A stretch of DNA of 64,000 nucleotides from Kaistia adipata DSM 17808. Lineage in GTDB: Bacteria; Pseudomonadota; Alphaproteobacteria; Rhizobiales; Kaistiaceae. Of this stretch, positions 5,141 through 21,978 are shown in pieces (the stretch's first letter is position 1; each line of letters starts with the position of its first letter). The translations under genes and the position numbers were made by a program. The notes under the pieces were generated by a model that was not told where the DNA came from, ran no database searches, and saw nothing but the letters and a program-made list of their open reading frames with translations. Location: contig NZ_AUHO01000007.1 in the NCBI RefSeq assembly GCF_000423225.1, positions 372,001 to 436,000 on the forward strand. The letters run 5' to 3'.

Positions 5141-5154
5141 CGCGGCTCAGCGCC

Positions 5155-8100
5155 TCACTTCGTCGTCGTCGGTCCGACGATCTCGACCGAGGCCGTATCG
5201 GTGTGGGCCTGGCGCTCGGGGTCGTACATGTCCTCGACCGTCGCGGCCGGATGCACGAAGGTGCCCGGCGAGACGGCGCGGACGCCGTAGGCGACCGTGA
5301 ACTCCAAGGGATCGCCGGACGAGCGGGTCAGCGCCGCCACGAAGCGGTCGGTGCGGGCCTCGGTATGGGCGAGGCTGGTGGTGCCCTGCAGCCACTCATA
5401 GGAAGAGGTGTCGCCCGAGCGCGAGATGTTGGGGTTCTCGATCTCGAAGCCGGCCGGCAGCGGATCGACCACCATCAGCCGTCCGAACCGGGCCTGGTCG
5501 GCCGCCACCTTGAGCACCACCACCAGCCGGTCGTTCTGCGCGACCGTCGACGGGTCTGCCTCGCTGCCGTCGGAGTTGAAGTAGCTGCGGGTGATCGTGA
5601 AGCCCTCGCCGCCGGCCGGCTCCGGCGAGGCCGGAATGCCGGTCAGCGTCAGCGCCGCGTCGAGCGGGATGTCGCTGGTATTGGCGACGACGAGCGGCTG
5701 GGTATCGACATCCGAGCCGAGGAGCTTGCGGTAGAGCGGCACCTCGCCCTTGTGGCCGTCGATCTCGATCGAGGCCTCTCTCAGGTCCGCCATCATCGCG
5801 GCGGCCGCCATCAGCATCCAGCCCTGCTCCTGGGTGGAGAGATAGCGGCGGCTGTCGCGGGTGGTCGCCACCTCGTTGACGAGGGTCTTCACGTCGATGC
5901 TCTTCTCGCCGCTCTCCGCGACGAGGGTGAGCACCGCCGCCTGATCGCGCAGGCCGGAGCCGTAGTCCTCGCGGCCGGCGAGCTGCTGGCCGGTGGCGCG
6001 GCGGAGATTGTCGATGGCGACGCCGAGCACCGTGCCCGAGCGTGCTTTGTCGCCATAAAGCGCCAGCGCCGCGCCGATCTGTGCCTGCGCCAGCGGCGTC
6101 GCGAAGTTGTTCAGCTTCGTCTCCGCGTAGTAGCGCAGGTCGCCGATCGCCGCCTTGCCGTTGCGGGCAAGCACGTAGAGCGAATAGGCGATCGCCTCGC
6201 CGCCCCGGTCGAAGTCGGTGGCATAGCCGACCTTGTTCGAGAGGTTGTCGAGCGCGTTGTTGAACGCGACCTCCGGAACGAGATAGCCGGCCGCCTTGGC
6301 GCGGGTCAGGAAGTCGGTGACATAGGCGTCGAGCCAGAGATCGTCATAGCCCGGCCCCCAGAGGCCGAACGAGCCGGCCGAGGACTGGTTGTCGAGCACC
6401 TTGCCGATCGAGGCCTGGATGCGCTCGCGCAGTTCGCTGTCCTGCGCGATGCCGATCGTCGCCGCCACCTGGTTCAGGTAGAGCAGCGGCATGGCCTTCG
6501 AGGTGATCTGCTCGGTGCAGCCATAGGGGTAGCGGTCGAGCGAGGCGAGGATCGCCGCGACGTCGAGCTTGGCCGTGCCGCCGACGGCGAGCGTCGCGCT
6601 CGTCGTGCCGGGCACGAACTCGGAGAAGGCGTAGCGGTCGAGGCTCAGCGTGTTGCCCGGCGCCATCGAGATCAGCGAGCGGCGCGACACCGGCTGGCCG
6701 GCGGGGCGAATGCCGAGCATGTAGGTCCGGTCGAAGGTCTGGCCATTTTCCGGGCTTGCCAGGCTGACGGTGATCTCGTGGTCGCCGATGTCGACGGCCT
6801 TGATCGGCAGCGCGACGGTCGCGCGGCCGGCCTTCTCCAGCGGGATCGCCTTGTCCGCATCGGCGGGTTCCATGGCGACGCCGGGCGCCGCGACGGTGAG
6901 CCGGTAGTCGCCCGCCGGGCCCTCGACATTGTTGATCTCGACGAGGATGCGGCTCTGGTCGTCCGGCGTCATGAAGCGCGGCAGGCTGGCCATCAGCACG
7001 ACGGGATCGCGCACGATGACGTCCTGCTCGGCGTGGCCGACGCCTTCCTTCGACCAGGCCATCGCCATGACGCGGACCGTGCCGTTGAAGTCGGGCAGGT
7101 CGAAGGTGATCGTCGCCTTGCCGTCGCCGTCGACCTTCACCACGCCCGAATAATAGGCGATCAGCTTCTCGGTCGGCGGGGGGGACTTCAGCCCCGCCGC
7201 GCCGCCGTCGCCGCCGGAGCGGAGGCGGCCGGGAACGCCCTGCATGCGGTCGATCAGCAGGCCGTAGAGGTCGCGGATCTCCATGCCGAGCCGGCGCTGG
7301 CTGAAATACCAGCCATCGGGATCAGGCGTCTTGAACTGGGTCAGGTTGAGGATACCGACATCGACGGCCGCGACCGTGACATAGGCGTCCTCGCCCGCTT
7401 TCAGGTTGGCGAGCGTGACGGGGATGGTCAGGGGGCCGCGCGGCCGGATCTGCGCCTCGGCGCCGAGCTTAACGTCGATGCGGCGGTCGGCCGGATCGAC
7501 CGGCACCCAGGCGAGGCCGAGCGCGCGCGACGGCATCCGCTTCGCCTGGACGTCCATCGGCCGGAACAGCGTGGCGGTGACATAGGCGCCGGGGCCCCAA
7601 TTGGTCGTCACGTCGAGGTCGACGGTGGTGCCGCCCTCCGGCACATCGACTGTCTTCATGTCGATGACGCGGTCGTCGATCACCATGATCTGGGCGATGC
7701 CGGGGAAGCGCGGATCGAGGCGCAGCTTGGCGGTCTCGCCGGGCTTGTAGTTCTTCTTGTCGAGCGAGACGGTCAGCATGTCCGGCGTCTCGGACGCGGC
7801 CGAGGCATCGACATACCAGCCGGCGTCGAAGGCGTAGCTCGACGAGGTCGGTGTGTCGCCGGCGAGCGCCACCGTCAGGCGGAAGCGGCCCCAGTTGACC
7901 TTGCTTTCGACCGTCGCCGGCTTGCCGGCCGTGAGGTCGACCGTGCCGTTGGCGACGCGGGTCGCCGTGGTGATCGCCTCGTATTTCCAGGCGCCGTCGC
8001 GACGGTACCACTGGTAGTTCGTGTCGAGCTTCTCGATCGACCAGGTCGCGCCATCCGCATCGATGCGCTGGCCGTCCGGACCGATGGCGATCAGCTCGAA

Positions 8101-10668
8101 GGAAGCCGCGCCGCCCTCCGGCACGCTGCCATCAAAGCTCGGCTTGATGCCGATATGCGGCTTGGTGCCGTCGGCCGGCAGCGTCATCCGCCGCTCGACC
8201 GCGCGGCCATTGGTATCGGTGACGCGGACGATGATCTCGGCGTTGAAGAGTTTTGTCGTCTCCGGCAGGCCCGGCACGGTGGCGTCGAAGCTGGCGCGGC
8301 CGTCCTCGTCGGTGATGGCGCTGGCGCCGAGCGAATCCCTGATGCTCTCGACCGGATCGTCCGAAAGGCCGAACGAATAGCCGGGATAGTCCGGGCTGAC
8401 GCTGGTCGGCGTCGCGATGATGTCGCCGTCGACGCCGAGGCCGATCGCGTTGGCGCCGTAGAGATATTTCGCGGTGAGCTCGATCGGGAAGGTGCCGCCC
8501 GAGGTGAGGCGCTCGGCGGTGGTCTTCAGTTCGAAGGCGACGCGTTCCGGCTCGAAATCGTCGACGAGCGCCGAGATCTCGGTCAGCGCCGCGCCGTCCG
8601 GATCGGCATAGAGCTGGAAGCGCCAGGCGCCGCGCTGGGCGCCGTCGGGAATGGCGACGTCCTGGCTGTAGCCGCCCTGACCCTCGTCATCGAGCTTGGT
8701 GCGCAGGAACTCGACGCCGTCCGGGCGGTCGACGACCAGCGTCAGCGGCAGGCCGGAAACCGCCTTGGCCTGGCTGTCACGCAGCAGCGCGGTCAGGTGC
8801 ACGGTTTCGCCGGGGCGGTAGATGCCGCGCTCGGAGGTGAAGAACGTGTCGAGCGCGCCCGGTGCCGGACGGCCGTCGACGCCGCGATCGGTCAGGTCGA
8901 ACGCCGTCTTCTTCATGTCGAGGAAGGCGTAGTCGCCGGCCTCCGTCTGCGCGACCAGAAGCTGGGGCGCCATGCCGCCGGTGCCGCGCGCCAGGCCCGG
9001 CTCGAAATGGACATAGCCGTCGGCGTTGGTCGTCGCCTCGCCGAGGATCTCGTCATTGGTCGCGACGAGCTTCACCTTGACGCCCGGCAGCGCCTTGGCG
9101 GTGTTGAGCGAGCGGATGACGGCATGGACGCCGTCATTGCCGGAAAGCGCCGACAGGCCGAGATCGGAGACGATGAACCACTGCGTCGCCAGGCTGTTGT
9201 AGTAGTCGTCGCTCGAGCCCTTGGTGGCGGCCTTGGCGGTGATGACGTAGACGCCGGGCTCGATCGTCTTGACCGCGTCGCCGATCGGGATCGCCGTGGT
9301 GATGCTCTCGTTCAGCTTGTTGCCGCCGACTTCGATCTGGCCCTTCCAGACCGAGGTTCCGGACTGGTTGGCGATCTGGCTGGCCGAATAGGTGTCGAGC
9401 TGGCGCAGGAAATTGCCGTCGCGCACCGCGATGGCGATGGAGCGATCGCCGATCCGGTAGACCTCGGCGTCGATCAGATCGGTGTTGATCGAGTCGATCG
9501 GGATCGAGGCGCCCTGGCCGGCCGGCAGCACATAGGCGTTGCCGGCGAAGCCGACCCACGGCGCGCGGTCGCGGATATAGCTCGAGACCTCGGCCATCTG
9601 CTGCAGCCTCTCGCCGTCGGCGGAGGGCAGGCCGGCACGGAAGCGCATCGTGTAGCGCTGACCGTGCTTCAGTCCGTCGATGCAGATCTGGTTGTCCTGC
9701 GGCTCGACCGCGAGGCCCTTGCCGCCCTCGACGACGACGAAGTCGGAGAGTGTTGGATCGGAGACGGGGAGCGGATCGGAGAAGATGACGCACATGCGTG
9801 GCGAGGCGGCGTCGGCATCGACCGTGTTGGAGACGATGCGGAAGCCGCGCTCGGCGATGAGCTTGTCATAGGCAGCGCGCAGCTGCGGATCCTGCTTGTA
9901 TTCGAGGCTGAGACGATAGGCCTTGATCGCCGTCTTCCACATCTCGCGCTTTTCCAGCGCGCGGCCGAGCAGGCCGAGGGACTGCGCCTGTTCCCCGGCG
10001 CCGTCGGCGCGGAGATAGGCGTTGATCGCGGCGGCGGAGGCGGCCGTCTGGACCTGCTGGCGCTCGCTGTATTCGCTCGGGTCGCGCTCGAGCAGCGCGG
10101 CGGCGAAGGCGCGCCAGAGCGCCGGATCGTCGGGCGCGATGGCGAGCATGGCGCCGAGATCGCGCACGAGCTCCGTCGTGTTGCCGGTCTGGCGGGAGCG
10201 TTCCGCGCCCTGGCGGATCGTGTCGTAGCCGATGCCGTGCGAGGGATAGTCGCTGGCGAGCGATCCGAGCTGGCGCTTCGCCTCGTCGAAGGGCGAGGGG
10301 CCGAGGAAGGCGAGTTCCTCGATCCGCTTTTCGGTGACGCTCTTGTCGATCGCCCTGGCCGTGACGATGCGGCCGGCATTGGCGCCGGGCGAGACCGCGA
10401 GTGCGCCGAAATCGCTCTTCAGGAAGCACCACTTGGCCTTGGTATTGTAGGTGAAGGCCTTGCAGGACGGATCGTCGGCGCAGGCCGAGGCGCAGGCCTT
10501 CTGCTCGACGTCCTTCAATGTCTGGTAGTCGAAGCCGGGATAGTCGGCGTCGCGGCTGATGATGACACGTCGCGGTCCGCTCTCCTGCGCGCCGGCCGAT
10601 GTCGCCAGGCCGCCGAGGGAGAGCGTCAGGCCGAGCACGAGCCCCAGAATTCCGCCGATACCGCGCAT
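5155..10668 (-). CDS. Bacterial alpha-2-macroglobulin family protein
   Basis: 1837 residues from ATG 10668, chosen because it opens a signal peptide (MRGIGGILGLVLGL, cleavage near AGA-QE) and has GGGAG 8 nt upstream; a longer reading to 10758 adds 30 unlikely residues. Just after the signal a Cys-rich PAN/apple-like module (DVEQKACASACADDPSC) is present. A large MG-domain region follows, then the complement-like domain with the thioester motif YGCTEQ near residue 1380. Proteins of this class (YfhM-like) trap proteases in the periplasm. Genetic pairing with pbpC, directly downstream, supports a role in protecting and repairing the cell wall. Confidence 0.93.
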   Translation of the reverse strand: MRGIGGILGLVLGLTLSLGGLATSAGAQESGPRRVIISRDADYPGFDYQTLKDVEQKACASACADDPSCKAFTYNTKAKWCFLKSDFGALAVSPGANAGRIVTARAIDKSVTEKRIEELAFLGPSPFDEAKRQLGSLASDYPSHGIGYDTIRQGAERSRQTGNTTELVRDLGAMLAIAPDDPALWRAFAAALLERDPSEYSERQQVQTAASAAAINAYLRADGAGEQAQSLGLLGRALEKREMWKTAIKAYRLSLEYKQDPQLRAAYDKLIAERGFRIVSNTVDADAASPRMCVIFSDPLPVSDPTLSDFVVVEGGKGLAVEPQDNQICIDGLKHGQRYTMRFRAGLPSADGERLQQMAEVSSYIRDRAPWVGFAGNAYVLPAGQGASIPIDSINTDLIDAEVYRIGDRSIAIAVRDGNFLRQLDTYSASQIANQSGTSVWKGQIEVGGNKLNESITTAIPIGDAVKTIEPGVYVITAKAATKGSSDDYYNSLATQWFIVSDLGLSALSGNDGVHAVIRSLNTAKALPGVKVKLVATNDEILGEATTNADGYVHFEPGLARGTGGMAPQLLVAQTEAGDYAFLDMKKTAFDLTDRGVDGRPAPGALDTFFTSERGIYRPGETVHLTALLRDSQAKAVSGLPLTLVVDRPDGVEFLRTKLDDEGQGGYSQDVAIPDGAQRGAWRFQLYADPDGAALTEISALVDDFEPERVAFELKTTAERLTSGGTFPIELTAKYLYGANAIGLGVDGDIIATPTSVSPDYPGYSFGLSDDPVESIRDSLGASAITDEDGRASFDATVPGLPETTKLFNAEIIVRVTDTNGRAVERRMTLPADGTKPHIGIKPSFDGSVPEGGAASFELIAIGPDGQRIDADGATWSIEKLDTNYQWYRRDGAWKYEAITTATRVANGTVDLTAGKPATVESKVNWGRFRLTVALAGDTPTSSSYAFDAGWYVDASAASETPDMLTVSLDKKNYKPGETAKLRLDPRFPGIAQIMVIDDRVIDMKTVDVPEGGTTVDLDVTTNWGPGAYVTATLFRPMDVQAKRMPSRALGLAWVPVDPADRRIDVKLGAEAQIRPRGPLTIPVTLANLKAGEDAYVTVAAVDVGILNLTQFKTPDPDGWYFSQRRLGMEIRDLYGLLIDRMQGVPGRLRSGGDGGAAGLKSPPPTEKLIAYYSGVVKVDGDGKATITFDLPDFNGTVRVMAMAWSKEGVGHAEQDVIVRDPVVLMASLPRFMTPDDQSRILVEINNVEGPAGDYRLTVAAPGVAMEPADADKAIPLEKAGRATVALPIKAVDIGDHEITVSLASPENGQTFDRTYMLGIRPAGQPVSRRSLISMAPGNTLSLDRYAFSEFVPGTTSATLAVGGTAKLDVAAILASLDRYPYGCTEQITSKAMPLLYLNQVAATIGIAQDSELRERIQASIGKVLDNQSSAGSFGLWGPGYDDLWLDAYVTDFLTRAKAAGYLVPEVAFNNALDNLSNKVGYATDFDRGGEAIAYSLYVLARNGKAAIGDLRYYAETKLNNFATPLAQAQIGAALALYGDKARSGTVLGVAIDNLRRATGQQLAGREDYGSGLRDQAAVLTLVAESGEKSIDVKTLVNEVATTRDSRRYLSTQEQGWMLMAAAAMMADLREASIEIDGHKGEVPLYRKLLGSDVDTQPLVVANTSDIPLDAALTLTGIPASPEPAGGEGFTITRSYFNSDGSEADPSTVAQNDRLVVVLKVAADQARFGRLMVVDPLPAGFEIENPNISRSGDTSSYEWLQGTTSLAHTEARTDRFVAALTRSSGDPLEFTVAYGVRAVSPGTFVHPAATVEDMYDPERQAHTDTASVEIVGPTTTK

Positions 10669-10840
10669 GATTGTCTCCCGCAAGCCGCCGTCTCGATAGC
10701 GCGGCAGTCTACGAGCCGCGCCGCTCGCCGTAAAGCGGCGGCCAATGCCGGTGGACAACGCTAAGTACCTTGGAATGAATGGAAATTAGCCGCGACAGCA
10801 TCGCCGTGTGATGGTGATCACAGAGTTGGGATCGCGCTTC

Positions 10841-11764
10841 TTAGCGTTCGCCGAGCGCCGAAAGCGCTGTCACGGCGGCCGAGGCGCGGTTCTCGACGCC
10901 GAGCTTCTGGTAGACCTGCTCGAGGTGCTTGTTCACGGTGCGCGGCGACAGGCCGAGGATCTCGGCGATGTCGCGGTTCGATTTTCCGCGCGCGATCCAC
11001 AGCAGCACCTCGGCCTCGCGCTGGGTGACCGTGAACTGGCGGCGCAACAGCGCCTCCTGGTCGCTGTCGTCCTCGCTCGACAGGCGGAACAGGAACTCGT
11101 CCTTGCCGGTCTTGCCGAGGAAGGCGAGCTGCAATTGCCGGCCGCCCTCGACGGGGATCGGGCCGGGCTGGCTGGTGCCGCCGCGCTCGCCGGCCGAGAC
11201 GCGCAGCCAGATGCGGATGCTCTCCGGCAGGCGGATGTTGCCGTCCGAGCTTGGCAGCGTCGCTTCCAGCAGCTTCACCGCCTGCGGCGTGCACCAGCGG
11301 ATCTCGCCCTCGCGGTTGGCGGCGAGCAAATAGCGCCCGGCCGTGTCGAGCGCGAGGCGCGCGCTCTGCGCCGTGCGGGCATTGGCGAGATGGACGCGGA
11401 TGCGGGCGAGCAGCACGTCGAGCACGATCGGCTTGGTGACATAATCGACGCCGCCCGCCTCCAGCCCCTCCAGCACGTGCTCGGTCTCCGACAGGCCGGT
11501 CATGAAGATGACGGGCACATGCGCCAGCGCCGTGTTCGCCTTCAGCCGGCGGCAGGCCTCGAAGCCGTCCATGCCGGGCATCACCGCGTCCATCAGCACG
11601 ATGTCCGGCGTGATCCGCTCGACCAGCGTCAGCGCCCGCGCGCCGGATGTCGCGACCAGCACGGTGGCGCCGGAACGCTCCAGCGCCTCGGTCAAGAAGC
11701 TCAGCGTCTCCGGCGAATCGTCGACGACCAGGACGATGTCGCGGCCATGCGTCGTTTCACTCAT
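10841..11764 (-). CDS. Response regulator with receiver, PAS-like and LuxR HTH domains
   Basis: 307 residues. The receiver (1-120) has DD at 15-16, phospho-acceptor D59 in IVLMDAVMPGMDG and K111. A PAS-like middle part (about 135-235) follows, and a LuxR-type HTH at the C-terminus (FTVTQREAEVLLWIARGKSN... SPRTVNKHLEQVYQKLGV). Its ATG overlaps the stop of the sensor kinase gene by 4 bp, so the two are a cognate translationally coupled pair. The likely target is the adjacent divergent urt operon, though this is inferred from position only. Confidence 0.92.
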   Translation of the reverse strand: MSETTHGRDIVLVVDDSPETLSFLTEALERSGATVLVATSGARALTLVERITPDIVLMDAVMPGMDGFEACRRLKANTALAHVPVIFMTGLSETEHVLEGLEAGGVDYVTKPIVLDVLLARIRVHLANARTAQSARLALDTAGRYLLAANREGEIRWCTPQAVKLLEATLPSSDGNIRLPESIRIWLRVSAGERGGTSQPGPIPVEGGRQLQLAFLGKTGKDEFLFRLSSEDDSDQEALLRRQFTVTQREAEVLLWIARGKSNRDIAEILGLSPRTVNKHLEQVYQKLGVENRASAAVTALSALGER

Positions 11765-14700
11765 GGCTCGCTCACCTCCTCCAGTGTCGCCTGGTAGCCG
11801 TCGAAGTCGAAGTTCCGGAGGTGTCCGCGCAGCACCGTCACGAAAGGCTGGTTGTCCGCGTTGGCGAAAAGCGCGTCCAGCTTCGCCTCGATGCCGCGGA
11901 CATAGCCGATCTGGCCGAGGTCGAGAAGCTCGCGGACATGGTCGGCGCCGGGGCTCCGGAGCGGCGCCGCTTGCGGTTCGGGCTTCGGCGCCGGCGGCTC
12001 GTCGATCCAGTCGAGCTGCAGCAGCGCCTGGATGCGGTCGAGCAATTGCCGCACATCAAACGGCTTCGGCAGCGCCGCGTCATGCGCCGCGTCCTCGGCC
12101 GGCTCCGGCTGCATCTCGCCGAGGCTCGCCGACAGCATGACGATTGGCGCGGCATGGCCGTTCTCCCGGAGCTTCCGCGCCAGCTCGAAGCCGGTCATGC
12201 CGGGCATCGAGATGTCGAGCAGGAAGAGGTCGGGCCTTATGTCGGCCGTCAGCGCCAGGCAGGCGGGGCCGTCGCCGACGGCGAGCACCGTGAAGCCGAG
12301 CGGCTCCAGGATCTGGCGCACCAGCTCGCGATGATCGGGGTCGTCGTCGGCGACGAGAATGACGCGGCGCTGGCCCTGATAGCCGAACACCCGCTTTGCC
12401 GGCGAGGGCAGCGGCGCCGGCCGGTTGACGGCCGCCAGCATGACCCGCACCTCGAAATGGCTGCCGATACCGGGTGCGCTGGCGAGCCGGATGTCGCCGC
12501 CCATCAGCTGCGCCAGCATCTTGGTGATGGTGAGCCCGAGCCCGGTGCCGGGCGCGGCCAGCGCCTGGGCGCCATTGCCGCGCTCGAACGGCTCGAAGAT
12601 GCGGTCGAGGTCCTCGGTCGCGATGCCGGGGCCGGTATCCTCGACGGTGAGCGTCGCGATCTGGCTGCGATAGGCGACACGGAAGGTGACGCTGCCTCGA
12701 TCCGTGAACTTGATCGCGTTGGAGAGCAAGTTGACGAGGATCTGGCGCAGCCGCTTCTCGTCGGTCGCCACCACTTCCGGTAACAGCTCCGGCCGATCGA
12801 AGCGGAAGGCGAGGCCCTTCGCCTCGGCCTGGAAGCGGAACATGTCGACCAGCTGGTCGAGGAAATCGCCAAGACGGATCTCGTCGCGCTGCAGCCGCAG
12901 CCGCCCCGTCTCGATGCGCGAGATCTCGAGCAGCCCGTCGATCAGGCCGGAGAGATGCTCGGCGCTGCGGCGGATGACGCTGATATTGCCCTGGCGCGTC
13001 GGCGGGATCGCCTCGTCGCGCTCCAGGATCTGCGCATAGCCGAAGACGGCATTGAGCGGCGTGCGCAGTTCATGGCTCAAGCCGACCAGATAGCGGCTCT
13101 TCGCCTGGTTGGCGGATTCGGCGACTTCCTTGGCGCGCTGCAGCTCGGCGTCGGTCTTCCGGTGCGCCTCGATCTCGCGCAGCAGTAGCGTCGTCTGCCG
13201 CGCCGATTCCTCCTGCGCCACGTGCCGGCTCTCGTTGGCCAGCACGAGGAACCAGGCGGCGATGCCGGAGACGATCAGCAGGATGAAGAAGGCCGCCCAG
13301 AGCGTCTGGCCGATGATGTCGCCAAAGCCGCTTTCGTGCACGTTCTGATAGGACGTCGCCTGCACGTGGATCAGCAGCAGCACCAGGCTGATCACCGCCA
13401 TGAACAGCGTCAGCACGCCGGCATATTGCACGACCCGGGGCCCGACGCGGGCCGCGACCTCGCTCGGCAGCACCTTGGCAGCGGCGATGCTGACCTGGTT
13501 CTGCAGCCGTGCGTGGGGCTTGCAGAGGTCGTGGCAGCGGGCGTCGAGCGAACAGCAGAGCGAGCAGATCGGCCCGGAATAGGCCGGGCAATAGGCAGTG
13601 TCTTCGGGCTCGAAATGGTGTTCGCAGACGGTGCAGCGGATCTCCTTCATCTCGTGCCAATGCGCGCGCGGCTTTCGCGCGAGGTAGTAGCGGCCGCCCG
13701 TGCCCCAGGCGATCAGGGGCGCCGCCACAAGCGCTGCGCCGAGCGCGATGAACGGCGCGAAGGCCTGCGCCACGGCGCCGGCGAGGCCGACCGCCGCCAT
13801 CAGGCCGAGCGCGGTGGCGATCGCCATGGCGCCGACGCCGACCGGGTTGATGTCGTAGAGGTGGGCGCGCTTGAACTCGATCCCCGGCGGCGACAGGCCG
13901 AGCGGCTTGTTGATGGCGAGATCGGCGACGATCGTGCCGAGCCAGGCGACGGCGACGACGGAGAACAAGCCGAGCGTCTGCTCCAGCGCCCGGTAGATGC
14001 CGAGTTCCATCAGGAGCAGCGCGATCGCGACGTTGAAGATCAGCCAGACGACGCGGCCGGGATGGCTGTGGGTTAGCCGTGAGAAGAAGTTCGACCAGGC
14101 GAGCGAACCCGCATAGGCGTTCATCACGTTGATCTTGAGCTGCGAGACGACGACGAAGGCGGCCGTCAGGAACAGGGCCGCGTCGGGCCAGGGCAGCACG
14201 TAGCCGAAGGCGACGACATACATCCGCGCCGGCTCGGCGGCATGCTCGACCGGCACGCCGTGCCGCAGCGCCAGCACGGCGAGGAAGGAACCGAACAGGA
14301 GCTTCGGCGCGCCGACGAGGATCCAGCCGGCGCCGGCGAGCAATGTCGCGATGCGGCCGCGCTTGCCCTCGAGGCCCGTCGCCGGCAGGAAGCGGAGAAT
14401 GTCGACCTGCTCGCCGATCTGCGGCATCAGGCCGAGGATCACCGAGCAGGCGGCGCCGAGCGAGATCAGGCCGAAGGCCGGGTTCGCCTCCGTCGGTGCC
14501 GGGCCCTCGAAGGCGAGCCAGGCCGTGACGGCGCCGGGCTCCTGCCAGAGGATGAAGCCGACCGGCAGGATGTTGAGGATGATCCAGAGCGGCTGGGTGA
14601 AGATCTGGAAGCGGCTGATCCAGGTGATGCCGTGCGTCACCAGCGGGATCACCACCACCGCGCTCAATATGTAGCCGAGCCAGATCGGAATGCCGAAGGC

Positions 14701-15129
14701 GATCTCCAGCGCCGTCGTCATGATCGAGGCTTCGATCGCGAACAGGATGAAGGTGAAGGTGGCGTAGATCAGCGAGGTGACGGTCGAGCCGATGTAGCCG
14801 AAGCCGGCGCCGCGGGTCAGCAGGTCGATGTCGACGCCGTAGCGCGAGGCGTAGCGGGCGATCGGCAGGCCGGTCAGCAGCAGCACGATGCCGACGATCG
14901 CGGTGGCGTAGATGGTGGTGATGGTGCCGTGCGACAGCGTGATCGCGCCGCCGATCGCCTCCAGCGCCAGGAACGAGATGGCGCCGATCGCGGTCTGCGC
15001 GACGCGCGGCGTGGTCCAGCGCCGCGCGCTCTTGGCGGTGAAGCGGAGCGCGTAGTCCTCCAGCGTCTGGTTGGCGACCCAGCGATTGTAGTCACGGCGG
15101 ACGGGGAGGATCCGCTGTCGTCCGGCCAT
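11761..15129 (-). CDS. Hybrid sensor kinase with NCS1-permease-like N-terminus
   Basis: 1122 residues. About 1-480 resembles an NCS1 cytosine/purine-type permease with around 12 membrane segments (GAISFLALEAIGGAITLSHG near residue 50). A cysteine-rich segment (about 497-535) has eight Cys in 39 residues in a CxxC...C...CxxCC...C...C pattern, probably metal-binding. Two more membrane helices and a coiled stretch lead to a HisKA domain (SHELRTPLN, H686), an HATPase domain (DTGPGIA, GTGLGLTI) and a receiver (D972 in LLDISMPGMTG). About 80 further residues at the C-terminus are unassigned. Transporter-kinase fusions such as CbrA sense or move a small solute. Position beside urt suggests urea or a purine breakdown product as signal. 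Confidence 0.92.
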   Translation of the reverse strand: MAGRQRILPVRRDYNRWVANQTLEDYALRFTAKSARRWTTPRVAQTAIGAISFLALEAIGGAITLSHGTITTIYATAIVGIVLLLTGLPIARYASRYGVDIDLLTRGAGFGYIGSTVTSLIYATFTFILFAIEASIMTTALEIAFGIPIWLGYILSAVVVIPLVTHGITWISRFQIFTQPLWIILNILPVGFILWQEPGAVTAWLAFEGPAPTEANPAFGLISLGAACSVILGLMPQIGEQVDILRFLPATGLEGKRGRIATLLAGAGWILVGAPKLLFGSFLAVLALRHGVPVEHAAEPARMYVVAFGYVLPWPDAALFLTAAFVVVSQLKINVMNAYAGSLAWSNFFSRLTHSHPGRVVWLIFNVAIALLLMELGIYRALEQTLGLFSVVAVAWLGTIVADLAINKPLGLSPPGIEFKRAHLYDINPVGVGAMAIATALGLMAAVGLAGAVAQAFAPFIALGAALVAAPLIAWGTGGRYYLARKPRAHWHEMKEIRCTVCEHHFEPEDTAYCPAYSGPICSLCCSLDARCHDLCKPHARLQNQVSIAAAKVLPSEVAARVGPRVVQYAGVLTLFMAVISLVLLLIHVQATSYQNVHESGFGDIIGQTLWAAFFILLIVSGIAAWFLVLANESRHVAQEESARQTTLLLREIEAHRKTDAELQRAKEVAESANQAKSRYLVGLSHELRTPLNAVFGYAQILERDEAIPPTRQGNISVIRRSAEHLSGLIDGLLEISRIETGRLRLQRDEIRLGDFLDQLVDMFRFQAEAKGLAFRFDRPELLPEVVATDEKRLRQILVNLLSNAIKFTDRGSVTFRVAYRSQIATLTVEDTGPGIATEDLDRIFEPFERGNGAQALAAPGTGLGLTITKMLAQLMGGDIRLASAPGIGSHFEVRVMLAAVNRPAPLPSPAKRVFGYQGQRRVILVADDDPDHRELVRQILEPLGFTVLAVGDGPACLALTADIRPDLFLLDISMPGMTGFELARKLRENGHAAPIVMLSASLGEMQPEPAEDAAHDAALPKPFDVRQLLDRIQALLQLDWIDEPPAPKPEPQAAPLRSPGADHVRELLDLGQIGYVRGIEAKLDALFANADNQPFVTVLRGHLRNFDFDGYQATLEEVSEP

Positions 15130-15274
15130 CGCGATCTGCTCATCTTCTGGGCTTGCCTAGTAATTGAGCGAAGATGCGCGATCCCGCGCTGCGGCGCAAG
15201 AGGAACGGTGGTGATTGGAGGCGGGGCACCGGCCCATTCACCGCTCGAACGAGGCCGCCCGCCCCACACTCGCC

Positions 15275-15380
15275 GTCATCCCGGCCTCCGAGCCGGGATC
15301 CATCCGGCCGGGTTGCCTGTCGTCGGCGCGCAATAGCGCAGGCCCTAGGCTGAATGGATTCCTGCTTTCGCAGGAATGAC
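15275..15380. repeat. GTCATCC...GGAATGAC palindromic repeat, copy 1
   Basis: Terminal inverted repeats flank the unit. The left end is a hairpin (ATCCCGGCC / GCCGGGAT); the right end is another (ATTCCTGC / GCAGGAAT). The right half is more diverged than in the other two copies. This end structure is typical of dispersed palindromic repeats in Hyphomicrobiales. Confidence 0.8.
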
Positions 15381-15480
15381 GGAGGTTTCTTTTGGCGGGA
15401 GGGCGCTGTTTCGTCGCCGCGCCTTCTTGGACGACGGCAGGCGTTCGCCATTAGGCCGCGACGCCAGCCCCACGCTCGCC

Positions 15481-15592
15481 GTCATCCCGGCCCCCGAGCC
15501 GGGATCCATCTATCCGCGCCTCGCCGCCGGGGTCCGTGGCGCGAACCGTTCGAGGCTTCGGCTGAATGGATCCTCGCCTTCGCGAGGATGAC
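15481..15592. repeat. GTCATCC...GGATGAC palindromic repeat, copy 2
   Basis: Same unit as copy 1, 206 bp downstream. The right-end hairpin is ATCCTCGC / GCGAGGAT. The linker to the next copy repeats the one before it (GGCAGGCGTT, TTAGGCCGCGACGCC), so the linker was duplicated with the element. Confidence 0.85.
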
Positions 15593-15693
15593 GGAGTTCC
15601 GCAGGCGGGAAGCGGCTTCTTCACCTCTCCCATGGAGAGAGGCCGACGGCAGGCGTTTGCCGTTAGGCCGCGACGCCGGCCAAGCCCTCCGCA

Positions 15694-15805
15694 GTCATCC
15701 CGGCCTCCGAGCCGGGATCCATCGATCCGCGCCTCGCCGCCGGGGTTCGTGGCGCGAACCGTTCGAGGCTTCGGCTGCATGGATCCTCGCCTTCGCGAGG
15801 ATGAC
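15694..15805. repeat. GTCATCC...GGATGAC palindromic repeat, copy 3
   Basis: Nearly identical to copy 2, including the internal stretch CGCGAACCGTTCGAGGCTTC. It lies 213 bp after copy 2, so the three form a tandem array with a period of about 210 bp. Confidence 0.85.
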
Positions 15806-16034
15806 GGTACGCCTCCGCCCTTCCGGAAGAGGACCATCCGCCCAGCCCGACCCCGTCCGATCTACGTCAATCGACGTATATGCTGCACTGCCGAAACTGC
15901 CGAGACTTGCCCCCAAGAACGCGATCGGCCCACTCCGGAAATCCCGCCGATCCCGTTCCACGATGTTCGCACAGAAACCGCCCGATCCGGCGCGCCCCGC
16001 CGGACAAAGGGCCGAACAGGGGGACTAGCAACCG

Positions 16035-17336
16035 ATGCTGAACTATGTGAGCCGGACCATCGGCGCGCTTGCGACGGCAGCCATGATCGGCGCCGGCGTG
16101 ACCGGCGCCGTCGCCGCGGAGGAGACGATCAAGGTCGGCGTCCTCCATTCGCTGTCGGGCACGATGGCGATCTCCGAAACCACGCTCAAGGACACCGTCC
16201 TCTTCCTGATCGACGAGCAGAACAAGAAGGGCGGCGTGCTGGGCAAGAAGCTCGAGGCGGTCGTCGTCGACCCGGCCTCGAACTGGCCGCTCTTCGCCGA
16301 GAAGGCGCGCGAGCTGATCAGCCAGAACAACGTCTCGGTCGTTTTCGGCTGCTGGACCTCGGTCTCCCGCAAGTCGGTACTGCCGGTGTTCAAGGAGCTG
16401 AACTCGATCCTGTTCTACCCCGTCCAGTATGAGGGCGAGGAGAGCGAGCGGAACGTCTTCTACACCGGCGCCGCGCCGAACCAGCAGGCGATCCCGGCCG
16501 TCGACTATCTGATGAGCGAGGAAGGCGGCGCCGTGAAGCGCTGGGTGCTCGAAGGCACCGACTACGTCTATCCGCGCACCACCAACAAGATCCTCGAGGC
16601 GTACCTGAAGTCGAAGGGCGTCGCCGCCGAGGACATCATGGTCAACTACACGCCGTTCGGCTTCTCCGACTGGCAGACCGAAGTCGCGGCGATCAAGAAG
16701 TTCGGCTCCGCCGGCAAGAAGACCGCCGTCGTCTCGACCGTCAACGGCGACGCCAACGTGCCGTTCTACAAGGAGCTCGGCAACCAGGGCATCAAGGCGA
16801 CCGACATCCCGGTCGTGGCCTTCTCGGTCGGCGAGGAAGAGCTGGCCGGCATCGACACCAAGCCGCTCGTCGGCCATCTCGCCGCCTGGAACTACTTCCA
16901 GTCCGTCGACACGCCGGAGAACGAGGAGTTCATCAAGAAGTGGCGCGCCTTCATCGGCAACGAGAAGCGCACCACCAACGACCCGATGGAAGCGACCGTC
17001 ATCGGCTTCAACGCCTGGGTGAAGGCGGTCGAGAAGGCCGGCACCACCGAGCCGGACGCGGTGATCGACGGCCTGATCGGTGTCTCCGTGCCGAACCTGA
17101 CCGGCGGCTTCTCCACCATCATGCCGAACCACCACATCACCAAGCCCGTCTATATCGGCGAAATCCAGGAAGACGGCCAGCTCGACGTGGTGTGGCAGAC
17201 CCCCGGCCTGGTGGTGGGCGACGAATGGTCCGACTACCTGCCGGACTCGAAGGACCTGATCGCCGATTGGCGCGCCCCGATGTCCTGCGGCAACTTCAAT
17301 GTCGCGACCGGCAAGTGCGGCGGCAAGGGTTCCTGA
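16035..17336 (+). CDS. urtA: Urea ABC transporter substrate-binding protein
   Basis: 433 residues with a signal peptide (1-27, cleavage after AVAA). The mature start EETIKVGVLHSLSGTMAIS and the VVDPASNWPLFAEKARELI block are characteristic of UrtA, the periplasmic Leu/Ile/Val-type binding protein for urea. It heads a five-gene urt operon for high-affinity urea uptake, normally induced by nitrogen limitation. A strong hairpin separates it from urtB. No urease genes are in the window. Confidence 0.96.
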   Translation: MLNYVSRTIGALATAAMIGAGVTGAVAAEETIKVGVLHSLSGTMAISETTLKDTVLFLIDEQNKKGGVLGKKLEAVVVDPASNWPLFAEKARELISQNNVSVVFGCWTSVSRKSVLPVFKELNSILFYPVQYEGEESERNVFYTGAAPNQQAIPAVDYLMSEEGGAVKRWVLEGTDYVYPRTTNKILEAYLKSKGVAAEDIMVNYTPFGFSDWQTEVAAIKKFGSAGKKTAVVSTVNGDANVPFYKELGNQGIKATDIPVVAFSVGEEELAGIDTKPLVGHLAAWNYFQSVDTPENEEFIKKWRAFIGNEKRTTNDPMEATVIGFNAWVKAVEKAGTTEPDAVIDGLIGVSVPNLTGGFSTIMPNHHITKPVYIGEIQEDGQLDVVWQTPGLVVGDEWSDYLPDSKDLIADWRAPMSCGNFNVATGKCGGKGS

Positions 17337-17453: not shown

Positions 17454-19076
17454 GTGGTCGACATGATCCAACGCTTCAAGGCCCTTCTCGCCATCCTGGC
17501 TCTCGTCCTCGTCGCCGCCATGCCGGCCCGCGCGGATGATCTGAAGCCGCTGGTCGACGGGCTCGGCAAGAACGGCTATGCGGCGCTGCGCGAGGCTATC
17601 GGCGCGCTGGCGGCGACCGGCGATCCGGCCGTGGCGCCCGTGCTGCAGGCGCTCGGCGCCGGCGATCTCTATGTGCGGAAATCCGATCGCGCCGTCTTCG
17701 CCGCGACCAAGGCGGATGGCGGCTTCGCCCTCAAGGATCCGCTCACCGGCGCCGACGCCGGCACAGCCGGTTCGCGCGACGTCGAGAAGATCAGGGTCAA
17801 CAACGCGGTGCGCGAGGCGGTGACATCAGCGCTTGGCTCGCTGACGCTGATGAGCGCCGATCCGGCCAAGCGCCGCGCCGCGGCGGCGGATGTGTTTAGG
17901 AACAGCGACCCCGCGCAGATCCCGCTGATCGACCAGGCGATATCAAAGGAGACCGACGCGGGCATCGCGACGACGCTGCAGATGGCGCGCGCCGCGGCCG
18001 TGCTGAAGTCGGACGCTCCCGACGCTGAGAAGGTCGCGGCGATCGCCGCGCTGCAGGCGAAAGGCGGCCGCGACGTGCTGGCGCAACTGACCGCGATCGA
18101 GGCCTCGGCGCCGGACGGCGCGGTCAAGGCGGCGGCGCAGACCGCGATCACCTCGATCCAAGGCACGCTCAAGCTCTGGGACGGCGCGCAGAACATCCTC
18201 TACGGCATCTCGCTCGGCTCGGTGCTGCTTCTGGCGGCAATCGGCCTCGCCATCACCTTCGGCGTGATGGGCGTCATCAACATGGCGCATGGCGAGATGG
18301 TCATGATCGGCGCCTACACGACCTTCGTCGTGCAGGAACTGATCCGCAACAACATGCCCTGGCTGTTCGACTGGTCGCTCGCCATCTCGCTGCCGCTCGC
18401 CTTCCTCGTCGCCGGCCTGGTCGGCGTGCTGATCGAGCGCATGGTGATCCGCTATCTCTACGGGCGCCCGCTCGAGACGCTGCTCGCCACCTGGGGCGTG
18501 TCGCTGATCCTGCAGCAGGCGGTGCGCACCTGGTTCGGTCCGAACAACCGCGAGGTCGGCAATCCGTCCTGGATGTCGGGCGCCTTCGAGCTCGGCAACC
18601 TGACCATCACCTACAACCGCATGTGGATCGTCGTCTTCGCGCTGGTCGTCTTCGCGACGCTGATGCTGGTGCTGAAGCGCACGCCCTTCGGCCTGCAGAC
18701 CCGCGCCGTGACGCAGAACCGGCCGATGGCGTCCTCGATGGGCATCCGCACGCCCTGGGTCGACGCGCTCACCTTCGGCCTCGGCTCGGGCATTGCCGGC
18801 ATCGCCGGCGTGGCGCTCAGCCAGATCGACAATGTCAGTCCCAATCTCGGCCAGGGCTACATCATCGACTCATTCATGGTCGTCGTGTTCGGCGGCGTCG
18901 GCAATCTCTGGGGCACGCTGGTCGGCGCCTTCACGCTCGGCATCGCCAACAAGTTCCTCGAGCCCTATGCCGGCGCGGTTCTCGGCAAGATCCTGGTCCT
19001 CGTCTTCATCATCCTGTTCATCCAGAAGCGCCCGCGCGGCCTGTTCGCGCTGAAGGGCCGGGCGGTGGAGGCATGA
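17454..19076 (+). CDS. urtB: Urea ABC transporter permease UrtB
   Basis: 540 residues from GTG 17454 (an ATG three codons later is equally possible). A signal-like helix (ARA cleavage) and about 220 hydrophilic, Ala-rich residues precede the LivH-type permease domain (from LYGISLGSVLLLAAIGLAIT). The extra N-terminal region is typical of UrtB compared with LivH. Eight or so membrane segments follow and include MGVINMAHGEMVMIGAY. It forms the channel with UrtC. Confidence 0.95.
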   Translation: MVDMIQRFKALLAILALVLVAAMPARADDLKPLVDGLGKNGYAALREAIGALAATGDPAVAPVLQALGAGDLYVRKSDRAVFAATKADGGFALKDPLTGADAGTAGSRDVEKIRVNNAVREAVTSALGSLTLMSADPAKRRAAAADVFRNSDPAQIPLIDQAISKETDAGIATTLQMARAAAVLKSDAPDAEKVAAIAALQAKGGRDVLAQLTAIEASAPDGAVKAAAQTAITSIQGTLKLWDGAQNILYGISLGSVLLLAAIGLAITFGVMGVINMAHGEMVMIGAYTTFVVQELIRNNMPWLFDWSLAISLPLAFLVAGLVGVLIERMVIRYLYGRPLETLLATWGVSLILQQAVRTWFGPNNREVGNPSWMSGAFELGNLTITYNRMWIVVFALVVFATLMLVLKRTPFGLQTRAVTQNRPMASSMGIRTPWVDALTFGLGSGIAGIAGVALSQIDNVSPNLGQGYIIDSFMVVVFGGVGNLWGTLVGAFTLGIANKFLEPYAGAVLGKILVLVFIILFIQKRPRGLFALKGRAVEA

Positions 19077-19176: not shown

Positions 19177-20331
19177 ATGGTGACAAACTTCCTCCTGCGC
19201 GCACTCGACCGCCGCACCGCGATCGTGCTGATCGCCATCCTCGGCGTTGGCATCCTCTTGCCGGTGCTCAACCTGGCGACGGATCCGTCGAGCCCGTTCC
19301 ACGTGCCGACCTATGTGCTGACGCTGCTCGGCAAGTACCTGACCTATGCGCTGCTGGCACTCGCGGTCGATCTCGTCTGGGGCTTCTGCGGCATCCTCTC
19401 GCTCGGCCACGCCGCCTTCTTCGCGCTCGGCGGCTATGCCATGGGCATGTACCTGATGCGCCAGATCGGCGATCGCGGCACCTATGGCAATCCGCTGCTG
19501 CCGGATTTCATGGTGTTCCTGAACTGGAAGGAGCTGCCCTGGTTCTGGACCGGCTTCGACCATTTCTGGTTCGCCGCGATCCTGGTGCTCCTGGTGCCGG
19601 GCATCCTCGCCTTCGTCTTCGGCTGGTTCGCGTTCAGGAGCCGCGTCACCGGCGTCTATCTCTCGATCATCACCCAGGCGATGACCTATGCGCTGCTGCT
19701 CGCCTTCTTCCGCAACGACATGGGCTTCGGGGGTAACAACGGGTTAACGGACTTCAAGGAGATACTGGGCTTCGACATCCAGGCGGATACGACGCGCGGC
19801 GCGCTGTTCTTCGCCTCGGCGCTGGCGCTCGCCGCCGGGTTCTGGATCTGCCGCGCCGTGATCGCCTCGAAGTTCGGCAAGGTGCTGGTCGCCGTCCGCG
19901 ACGCCGAGAGCCGGACCCGCTTCATCGGCTACCGGGTCGAGGGCTACAAGCTCCTCGTCTGGACGCTCTCGGCCATGATGGCCGGCGTCGCCGGCGCGCT
20001 CTACGTGCCGCAGATCGGCATCATCAATCCCGGCGAGTTCGCACCCGCCAATTCGATCGAGGCTGTGATCTGGGTGGCGGTCGGCGGCCGCGGCACGCTG
20101 ATCGGCCCGATCGTCGGCGCGCTGCTCGTCAGTTTCGGCAAGACCTGGTTCACCAGCGGCATGCTCGCCGAATACTGGCTGTTCGTGCTCGGCGGCCTGT
20201 TCGTGCTCGTCACCCTGTTCCTGCCCAAGGGCGTCGTCGGCACGTTCCTGGCGCGCGACCGGAAGAAGCCGGCCGAGAAGCCGATCGAGGACGTCGTGGC
20301 GCCCGGCGCCGTCGGCCAGGCAGCGGAGTAA
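19177..20331 (+). CDS. urtC: Urea ABC transporter permease UrtC
   Basis: 384 residues, LivM-type inner-membrane permease with about 9-10 helices. ALAVDLVWGFCGILSLGHAAFFALGGY split over the early helices and the cytoplasmic loop RDAESRTRFIGYRVEGYK (EAA-like contact with the ATPases) fit UrtC. It lies 5 bp ahead of urtD. Confidence 0.95.
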   Translation: MVTNFLLRALDRRTAIVLIAILGVGILLPVLNLATDPSSPFHVPTYVLTLLGKYLTYALLALAVDLVWGFCGILSLGHAAFFALGGYAMGMYLMRQIGDRGTYGNPLLPDFMVFLNWKELPWFWTGFDHFWFAAILVLLVPGILAFVFGWFAFRSRVTGVYLSIITQAMTYALLLAFFRNDMGFGGNNGLTDFKEILGFDIQADTTRGALFFASALALAAGFWICRAVIASKFGKVLVAVRDAESRTRFIGYRVEGYKLLVWTLSAMMAGVAGALYVPQIGIINPGEFAPANSIEAVIWVAVGGRGTLIGPIVGALLVSFGKTWFTSGMLAEYWLFVLGGLFVLVTLFLPKGVVGTFLARDRKKPAEKPIEDVVAPGAVGQAAE

Positions 20332-20336
20332 GGCGA

Positions 20337-21113
20337 ATGACCAGCACGATCGAACCCGTCGCCCATGCCAAGGCCAAGGATTCGCTGCTCTATCTCGACG
20401 GCGTCAGCGTTTCCTTCGACGGCTTCAAGGCGCTGCGGGGCCTGTCGCTGGTGATCGAGCCTGGCGAGATGCGGGCGATCATCGGCCCGAACGGCGCCGG
20501 CAAGACGACGATGATGGACGTCATCACCGGCAAGACCAAGCCGGATTCGGGCGACGTCTATTTCGCCGGCGACACCGACCTGACCCGGCTCGACGAGGCG
20601 GCGATCGCCTCGCTCGGCATCGGTCGCAAGTTCCAGAAGCCGACCGTGTTCGAGAGCCACACGGTGTGGGACAATATCGACCTGGCGCTGGCCGGCGACC
20701 GCAAGCCCTTCGCCACCCTGTTCCACCGCACCTCGCAGGCCGAGATCGCGCGGGTGGAGGAAATCCTCGATACGATCCGCCTGACCGACAAGCGCGACTG
20801 GCTCGCCGCCAATCTCTCGCATGGCCAGAAGCAGTGGCTGGAGATTGGCATGCTCCTGGCGCAGGAGCCGAAGCTGCTGCTCGTCGACGAGCCGGCGGCG
20901 GGCATGACCGATGCCGAGACGGCCGAGACGGCGATCCTGCTCCAGGAGATCGCCAGGACAAAGTCGGTCGTCGTCGTCGAGCACGACATGACCTTCGTGC
21001 GCGACCTCGGGGTCAAGGTGACCGTGCTGCATGAGGGCTCCGTCCTTTCGGAGGGCTCCCTCGACGCGGCCTCCGCCGACCCCAAGGTCATCGAAGTCTA
21101 TTTGGGGCGGTAG
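20337..21113 (+). CDS. urtD: Urea ABC transporter ATP-binding protein UrtD
   Basis: 258 residues, LivG-type ATPase. Walker A is GPNGAGKTT, the signature is LSHGQKQWLEIG in place of the usual LSGGQ, as in other UrtD proteins, and Walker B is LLLVDEPAAGMT. It pairs with UrtE to drive urea uptake through UrtBC. Confidence 0.95.
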   Translation: MTSTIEPVAHAKAKDSLLYLDGVSVSFDGFKALRGLSLVIEPGEMRAIIGPNGAGKTTMMDVITGKTKPDSGDVYFAGDTDLTRLDEAAIASLGIGRKFQKPTVFESHTVWDNIDLALAGDRKPFATLFHRTSQAEIARVEEILDTIRLTDKRDWLAANLSHGQKQWLEIGMLLAQEPKLLLVDEPAAGMTDAETAETAILLQEIARTKSVVVVEHDMTFVRDLGVKVTVLHEGSVLSEGSLDAASADPKVIEVYLGR

Positions 21114-21282
21114 CGATGGCGCGGAAGTCCACCGGCCAACGCCCCGCTGATCTGCAGCCGGAACCGTTGCAGCGGGCTTCGCAGGATGAGCCGAAAAAAT
21201 CACGGCGCGCCGCCGCCTGGAGCCTCGCTCTGGCGAGATGGGCGGAAGCGTCGGAAGAGCCGGAAGCCGGGAAGGGCTGATC

Positions 21283-21978
21283 ATGCTGGAAGTCAGGAAC
21301 GTCGATCTTCACTATGGCGCCGCGCAGGCGTTGCGCCATGTCTCGCTGACCGCCGAAATCGGCCAGGTGACCTGCCTGATGGGGCGGAACGGCGTCGGCA
21401 AGACGAGCCTGTTGCGGGCGGTCGTCGGGCAAAAGCCGATCTCGGGCGGCGAGATCCTGTGGGAGGGCAAGCCGCTCGGCCGCATGGCACCGCACGAGCG
21501 GGCCAAGGCTGGCATCGCCTATGTGCCGCAGGGGCGCGAGGTGTTCCCGTTGCTCTCGGTGAAGGAAAACCTCGAGACAGGCTATGCGCCGCTGCCGCGG
21601 CGTGAACGCCACGTTCCCGACTATGTCTTCGATCTGTTTCCGGTGCTGAAGGACATGCTGCGCCGGCGCGGCGGCGACCTGTCAGGCGGTCAGCAGCAGC
21701 AATTGGCGATCGGGCGCGCGCTGGTGACGCGGCCGCGCCTTCTCGTCCTCGATGAGCCGACGGAGGGCATCCAGCCGTCGATCATCAAGGACATAGGCCG
21801 CGCGATCGAATGGTTGCGCGCACAGGGGACCATGGCGATCCTCCTGGTCGAGCAATATTTCGATTTCGCGCATGAACTGGCCGATCGTTTCGCTGTGATG
21901 GATCGCGGCGAGATCGTCGTTTCGGGCACGCAATCCGAAATGGGCTCGGAACAAGTCCGCGCCCACCTCACCGTATGA
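21283..21978 (+). CDS. urtE: Urea ABC transporter ATP-binding protein UrtE
   Basis: 231 residues from ATG 21283; an upstream in-frame start would add 15 residues without family support. LivF-type ATPase with Walker A GRNGVGKTS, signature LSGGQQQQLAIGRAL and Walker B LLVLDEPTEGIQPS. The 169-bp gap after urtD is larger than elsewhere in the operon and holds no clear gene. Its 3' end overlaps a convergent small gene by 11 bp. Confidence 0.95.
   Translation: MLEVRNVDLHYGAAQALRHVSLTAEIGQVTCLMGRNGVGKTSLLRAVVGQKPISGGEILWEGKPLGRMAPHERAKAGIAYVPQGREVFPLLSVKENLETGYAPLPRRERHVPDYVFDLFPVLKDMLRRRGGDLSGGQQQQLAIGRALVTRPRLLVLDEPTEGIQPSIIKDIGRAIEWLRAQGTMAILLVEQYFDFAHELADRFAVMDRGEIVVSGTQSEMGSEQVRAHLTV

Follow-up and report, generated by a model that had tools for sequence, protein, structure and literature searches.

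Histidine kinases that sense through a transporter-derived domain are already known, and such fusions have been called rare (PMC13022988). In CbrA of Pseudomonas, a transporter domain fused to a histidine kinase is read as a nutrient sensor, and a linker beneath the transporter is proposed to pass on its movements (PMC13022988). The hybrid kinase of CrbS/CrbR combines a transporter-like domain with a receiver, and it is needed for nutrient-gene expression (PMC5436829). In Ks-Amt5 a transporter-derived sensor is joined to a kinase, and the small nitrogen compound that it senses is bound and not carried (PMC5764959). Here we describe a kinase of this general kind in a 64,000-nucleotide stretch of Kaistia adipata DSM 17808 (contig NZ_AUHO01000007.1, positions 372,001 to 436,000; the window), where it lies beside the urtABCDE transport operon and where its sensor domain has the NCS1 permease fold, as computed in this analysis.

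Each of the described systems differs from this one. CbrA has an SLC5 and not an NCS1 domain, a STAC linker and a PAS domain in place of the cysteine (Cys) module and two helices found here, and histidine as its ligand. CrbS/CrbR has a sodium/solute-symporter-like domain with STAC and PAS domains and controls acs, while Ks-Amt5, from an anammox bacterium, has the Amt fold and ammonium as its ligand (PMC5764959). The NCS1 proteins Mhp1 and CodB share the fold of the sensor domain, but have hydantoin or cytosine as substrates and no kinase, and the Pfam NCS1 model misses the sensor as a single sequence. The ATP-binding cassette (ABC) transporters of the FmdDEF/UrtABCDE type, for urea and short-chain amides, correspond to the linked target operon; the terms 'histidine kinase', 'sensor' and 'two-component' are absent from the main text of a review on them (PMC10781810), and 'histidine kinase' and 'two-component' from the main text of a paper that discusses a plasmid-type urt-formamidase cluster ('UTS') in the Klebsiella lineage CG307 (PMC13060141). 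In the open literature searched we recognised no study of this kinase family and none that assigns urea or amide sensing to it. A table in PMC12542648 gives SMb20609 as a histidine kinase and SMb20610 as a two-component response regulator, and these are the putative S. meliloti orthologues of the pair. Relative to the fusions already known, an NCS1-type sensor with a Cys tail, urea and amide partners and a dedicated predicted operator did not turn up in that literature.

Our analysis points to a two-component system of the transceptor type that responds to urea and short-chain amides, and in which the regulator would bind an inverted repeat and control urt; we put the probability of this reading at roughly 0.7. 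Four lines of evidence were computed here: the fold, the family-wide gene linkage, the linkage of the repeat, and the homology of the sensor to permeases beside urease, formamidase and amidase genes. The features of the locus are as follows.

11761..15129, minus strand: hybrid sensor histidine kinase, 1122 amino acids (single open reading frame, Pfam)
13672..15060, minus strand: NCS1-type (LeuT-fold) permease domain, about residues 24-486 (AlphaFold model, Foldseek, profile comparison)
13522..13635, minus strand: eight-Cys module, residues 499-536 (alignment and spacing count)
13225..13440, minus strand: two further transmembrane helices, about residues 564-635 (AlphaFold model)
12904..13101, minus strand: HisKA domain with H686, residues 677-742 (Pfam)
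12439..12765, minus strand: HATPase_c domain, residues 789-897 (Pfam)
12028..12360, minus strand: receiver domain with D972, residues 924-1034 (Pfam)
10841..11764, minus strand: response regulator, 307 amino acids, with a receiver, a middle alpha/beta domain (putatively PAS-like) and a LuxR/FixJ-type helix-turn-helix (Pfam and model)
15863..15878, no strand assigned: predicted operator TACGTCAATCGACGTA, 157 bp upstream of urtA
16035..17336, plus strand: urtA, substrate-binding protein (544.8 bits to TIGR03407, above cut-off)
17454..19076, plus strand: urtB (64% like annotated urtB of S. meliloti)
19177..20331, plus strand: urtC (77% like annotated urtC of S. meliloti)
20337..21113, plus strand: urtD (gene order and ATPase-like translation)
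21238..21978, plus strand: urtE, true start probably 21283 (gene order)

Sensor domain and Cys module

The preliminary description of this DNA had joined an NCS1-permease-like domain, a Cys-rich segment, two more helices, a kinase and a receiver in one protein of 1122 amino acids, and this layout is upheld: the gene is a single open reading frame, H686 and D972 stand where they were first placed, and the AlphaFold model has the two added helices after the Cys segment. With its HisKA domain and histidine, its HATPase_c domain and its receiver and aspartate, the protein is a hybrid histidine kinase. The sensor is present as one copy in the K. adipata genome, and Kaistia granuli is the closest named relative among the matches listed.

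A Pfam search with the single kinase sequence gave no permease family at E<=1, only the kinase and receiver domains, and the cut-off of PF02133, the Pfam NCS1 family, was not reached. The sensor profile found 0 sequences in the PDB, for both A1 and A2; a fold search was needed. The AlphaFold model of sensor residues 1-660, built from 77 aligned sequences, has a predicted local distance difference test (pLDDT) score of 78 and a predicted template-modelling (pTM) score of 0.80, and Foldseek ranks two NCS1 proteins highest among solved structures, Mhp1 with E 2.1e-9 and CodB with a TM-score (target length) of 0.81, with SLC5-type symporters ranking below them. When profiles were compared, 18 sensors and permeases against six NCS1-like proteins, the probability was 99.7%, versus 0.2% for a UrtC control, so that the permease-like domain first described is borne out by model and profiles alike. 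The homology also follows by transitivity: a free-standing homologue from K. pneumoniae (L256), 40-41% identical to the window protein, matches PF02133 with 38.1 bits (cut-off 23.5). Pfam finds no STAC domain in the kinase at E<=1, and the kinase does not belong to the SLC5-STAC group. NCS1 proteins keep both termini inside the cell, and the Cys module is therefore taken as cytoplasmic.

The cysteines of this module are residues 499, 502, 514, 522, 525, 526, 532 and 536. The preliminary description had counted eight in 39 residues at about 497-535; the count stands, and the span is 38 residues, with limits one or two places off. All eight are invariant across the 77 aligned sequences, and their exact spacing recurs in 163 of the 165 loci analysed (the exceptions being L135, which is a free-standing permease, and L133, whose gene was read with a length of 463 amino acids), which argues against chance. 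An identical eight-Cys module forms the C-terminal tail of a free-standing permease in Methylovirgula, so the module is neither tied to the kinase nor special to signalling. Permeases of Klebsiella, Acinetobacter and Moraxella retain four cysteines (499, 502, 522 and 525), the set to be expected of a two-knuckle site; five are found in one Streptomyces permease, and most are lost in two actinobacterial permeases. Taken together, these tails suggest two sites of four cysteines each that disappeared singly. Zinc-binding Pfam families give weak matches only, in one or two of 36 members (best E 0.056). The module is probably a structural metal site, with zinc the probable metal, and not a dedicated input.

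Gene neighbourhoods of kinases and free-standing permeases

The scan of named genomes found at least 581 relatives, of which the best 80 were kept, and a sample of the phylum (397 genomes) gave 70 genomes with a match; in 65 of these, 71 copies reach at least 52% identity, and the other five match weakly. About 10 kb on each side was read for all 71 copies where the contig allowed, the window serving as its own locus, with neighbours called by tblastn markers, on which the gene calls in sampled genomes rest; the 165 loci include close relatives. The preliminary description had staked its reading on homologues not lying mostly away from nitrogen genes, and the opposite of such scatter was found. 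In 67 of the 71 copies the kinase lies within about 10 kb of urea genes (26 copies, with classic urt and/or urease) or of short-chain-amide genes (41 copies). The amide partners are an amide-type urt ABC system, the formamidase FmdA/FmdB and, often, an enzyme 76-88% like annotated aliphatic amidases. Two of the remaining four copies (L175, L204) are cut by contig ends and two (L185, L167) are true misses. Among the best 80 of the at least 581 named relatives, urt is present in 73 loci, with four of the seven misses cut by contig ends, and urease genes follow urt in 23. The kinase-regulator order is kept in 68 of the 71 copies; L160 shows no regulator.

UrtA over the cut-off occurs in 10/10 kinase-bearing versus 25/134 other genomes of a sample of the class (Fisher p=2.4e-7, kinship ignored), and in 63 of the 65 kinase-bearing genomes of the phylum sample. 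Allantoinase as a neighbour of the kinase was rejected, as it exceeds the cut-off in only two of the 65 genomes and never on the kinase contig. For weaker allantoinase-like genes, 25 genomes were measured among the matches listed; the nearest lies 19 kb from the kinase, and seven genomes of the same order have one at 25-32 kb.

A quick tree was built from 82 proteins. Its 73 kinases group as a single clade (Shimodaira-Hasegawa-like approximate likelihood ratio test, SH-aLRT, 98), and at least four changes of partner class, amide or urea, are needed to explain the tree. These natural switches offer a means to map specificity. Residues change in parallel in the four urea clades at 18 columns, versus a mock mean of 4.8 (standard deviation 3.4); positions such as 285, 336 and 397-401 are leads only, since the mock clades are smaller or younger. 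In two loci (L166 and L169) this sensor with its Cys module is joined to a kinase of reduced length (885 and 879 amino acids) that has no receiver, with FmdA/FmdB nearby and only a weak regulator match, located elsewhere; this is a second output architecture.

The family extends to plasmids. Matches to the sensor occur in 342 Klebsiella records, and a member adjoins the plasmid urt-formamidase genes of this genus: on one plasmid record (L130) the cluster has the kinase, the operator and a downstream regulator-like gene, which was found by tblastn and is missing from the listed annotation. For the plasmid-borne members, annotation goes no further than 'ATP-binding protein', 'response regulator' or 'hybrid sensor histidine kinase'.

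The sensor domain also has free-standing permease relatives, which share 38-48% identity with it and are often named cytosine or allantoin permease. Ten of their loci were read, from the 18 top records (H141-H158) of 24 listed. In seven of the ten a urease (Acinetobacter twice, Klebsiella), a formamidase (Moraxella, Tsukamurella, Methylovirgula) or an aliphatic amidase (Arthrobacter U41) lies beside or near the permease, while a Streptomyces and a second Arthrobacter locus show no urea or amide link. The permease of A. baumannii is divergent from the sensor kinase itself, and the gene order in Methylovirgula is fmdB-fmdA, kinase, regulator, permease, aliphatic amidase. A chromosome-sized Klebsiella record has a 'cytosine permease' (L256:9956-11563) immediately behind its urease genes; this protein, a free-standing sensor-domain paralogue, is a candidate urea permease. 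The proposed reading predicts that permeases named for cytosine or allantoin beside urease or formamidase genes carry urea or amides. A wider proposal, to which we give a little less than an even chance, is that a separate NCS1 clade would carry urea and short-chain amides, not heterocycles, both as free-standing permeases and, by one fusion, as transceptor kinases in which the Cys tail of the permease is kept as a metal-bound gate from ligand to kinase, with an operator of its own marking urt, fmdA and amiE.

The regulator and the inverted repeat

The preliminary description also held that a LuxR-type regulator overlaps the kinase by 4 bp and that urtABCDE starts divergently. Both points are as described: the regulator gene shares ATGA with the 3' end of the kinase gene, and urtA starts at 16035 on the plus strand, across a gap of about 905 bp. 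The regulator is of the FixJ/NarL type, with a receiver and a LuxR-type (GerE) helix-turn-helix by Pfam, and its model, with a pTM of only 0.50, has full-length StyR and FixJ among its best fold matches. Proteins of the StyR/FixJ family bind inverted repeats of the kind described below.

The sequence GCATATACGTCGATTGACGTA is common to eight Kaistia-type intergenic regions, the discovery set. Written as TACGTCA-NN-TGACGTA, the repeat is a 7-2-7 inverted repeat, which is the geometry of NarL-type sites. We searched 3.33 Mb in the 165 loci for a strict form, TACGT-N6-ACGTA, and a degenerate form, TACGY-N6-RCGTA, some clades carrying TACGC-N6-GCGTA instead. The strict form has 110 sites. All but two (108) stand upstream of urtA, fmdA or the kinase at a distance of up to 350 bp, and 98 of 139 kinase-linked urtA genes are preceded by one; the degenerate form has 153 sites, 145 so placed, and precedes 124 of the 139. 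Read backwards as a control, the degenerate pattern has 8 sites, 0 so placed. The site is absent upstream of urtA in kinase-less genomes of the class sample (0/25) and upstream of unlinked urtA, 12 over the cut-off and 2 below, in kinase-bearing genomes (0/14). In 29 loci urtA is found upstream of the kinase at a distance of 1.3-8 kb; a strict site stands at urtA in 22 of these and at the kinase in 0. The repeat is linked to kinase-bearing loci, and the control of urt by the pair, which the preliminary description had proposed, gains support from this distribution.

Among the 71 copies of the phylum sample, a site is present in 35/41 amide, 12/17 urt, 0/9 urease-only and 1/4 other copies. Sites were also seen upstream of fmdA, in 9/49. 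Two genomes have a strict site some 60-80 bp ahead of an amiE match, once on a different contig from the kinase, and Methylovirgula has sites between fmdA and the kinase and, roughly 140 bp ahead of it, at the amidase gene. Two of the urease-only copies (G267, G279) have a strict site before a urtA 11-12 kb away, beyond the stretch read, and in the urease-divergent clade the operator is absent in six urease-only members, in which no common inverted repeat was seen. It is also absent from eight free-standing permease loci (L135, L255-L260, L262). The 4.84-Mb genome of K. adipata holds two strict sites, three counting the degenerate form, one of them 157 bp before urtA. Among the matches listed, five sites (L334 in G490, L335 in G179, L338 in G429, L339 on C4 of K. 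adipata and L340 in G041) have no adjoining urea or amide gene by the markers used; L334 and L335 are strict copies in two genomes of the same order, away from such genes.

A sigma-54 (NtrC-type) promoter toward urtA was rejected, the match TGG[CT][AG][CT]-N5-TTGC occurring in that direction in 0 of 107 divergent intergenic regions. Toward the kinase, sigma-54-like matches occur in 9 of the 107. Seven of these nine fall in the 48 amide-type regions (shuffles 0.16), and the kinase genes of amide-type loci may be under nitrogen control.

Proposed signalling and alternative explanations

In the favoured reading, the NCS1-like domain would bind urea or a small amide that comes from outside or is in transit. 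The resulting conformational change would be handed on by the cytoplasmic Cys module, most likely a metal-bound structural coupler, and then by the pair of added helices, until it reached the HisKA helix and set the phosphorylation of H686; this relay is drawn by analogy with CbrA and Ks-Amt5. Phosphate would reach the regulator receiver via D972 or directly, and a regulator dimer would bind the repeat upstream of urtA and switch urtABCDE. The ligand, the direction of signalling, activation and not repression, the binding of the repeat by the regulator and the metal of the module are each what we infer. The small-carbonyl-amide class is proposed for the sensor as the property common to the partners' compounds, urea, formamide and acetamide, and urea is the most likely ligand in K. 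adipata, since its UrtA is of the classic type that precedes urease genes in many relatives. The fmdCABDEF genes of Methylophilus are induced by formamide and by urea (PMC10781810). This reading gives a large kinase family a candidate ligand class, a regulator and a DNA site. The preliminary description had named urea or a purine-derived nitrogen source as the signal; its urea half agrees with the gene context, the paralogues beside urease and amidases and the repeat, and has to be widened to short-chain amides, the commoner partners, while its purine half, judged by allantoinase, is not sustained.

Several observations count against the favoured reading. Both ureases of K. adipata are on another contig than the kinase, the kinase-regulator pairs of L185 and L167 have no urea or amide genes nearby, and seven of the nine urease-only copies have no operator in the stretch read. 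In three genomes (G026, G136, G041) the kinase is unlinked to urtA and the site is found at 0/7 urtA-like genes read, although the kinase gene of both G026 and G136 has a degenerate site of its own some 100 bp ahead of it. The degenerate form was chosen after several groups had been viewed, and the eight discovery regions lie within the 139. The strict site occurs in only 43 of 67 genomes; in K. adipata the pattern compares with the backward control as 2 versus 0 (strict) and 3 versus 18 (degenerate), and across many genomes the control equals or outnumbers it. The site is non-random by placement only, not by genome-wide number. The permease domain may also sense something other than a transported substrate.

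The pair could instead sense short-chain amides such as formamide and acetamide even in K. adipata, the linked Urt being an amide or mixed urea/amide transporter. Amide genes are the commoner partners (41/71), and a urt-like system of Bradyrhizobium beside formamidase and amidase genes has been argued, from context, to carry an amide and not urea (PMC3098086). The UrtA here, however, is of the classic type, 78-84% like UrtA of named relatives with urease after urt, and the genome has two ureases; we regard amide sensing at this locus as unlikely but not negligible. Another regulator might own the repeat, with the kinase pair merely travelling with the cluster. Its binding by the paired regulator is a prediction, 15 of the 139 kinase-linked urtA genes lack a degenerate site, and several unlinked urtA genes of kinase-bearing genomes have none; yet the site is absent at all 39 unlinked urtA upstream regions read, including second copies in the same genomes, there are only two strict sites (three with the degenerate form) in 4.84 Mb, and the paired regulator is the DNA-binding protein that recurs in these loci (68/71), so that this explanation seems improbable.

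It is distinctly improbable that the Cys module, and not the permease domain, receives a metal or redox signal, with urt gated by nickel, zinc or oxidative state. Urease requires nickel, and all eight cysteines are kept in the intact kinases read; against this, one free-standing permease has the eight-Cys tail and others a four-Cys form, and members partnered with formamidase or amidase keep all eight. Sensing of a purine breakdown product (allantoin, hydantoin), as the NCS1 fold suggests, is scarcely credible. Characterised NCS1 substrates are mostly nitrogen heterocycles, heterocyclic rings being their shared feature and metformin the exception given (PMC13390362), and sub-cut-off allantoinase-like genes lie at 25-32 kb in the seven genomes mentioned above; but allantoinase over the cut-off is found in only two of 65 genomes, on other contigs, and the neighbours are urea and amide genes.

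A second urea/amide cluster in K. adipata (C1:1468874-1487259; L221, L223, L224) contains an FmdA-like gene, two UrtA-like paralogues below the cut-off and one of the two ureases, and has neither sensor kinase nor operator. No Rfam element reaches its gathering score in 10500-16500 of the window. The gap between kinase and urtA is about 906 bp here versus 292-572 bp in six relatives compared, and repeats in up to three copies, at a spacing of about 206-213 bp, occupy 15256-15809, between the kinase start and the operator. Beyond the regulator, on the same strand, 2906-10758 holds a penicillin-binding protein 1C-type gene and the gene for an 1867-residue bacterial alpha-2-macroglobulin with an N-terminal PAN domain.

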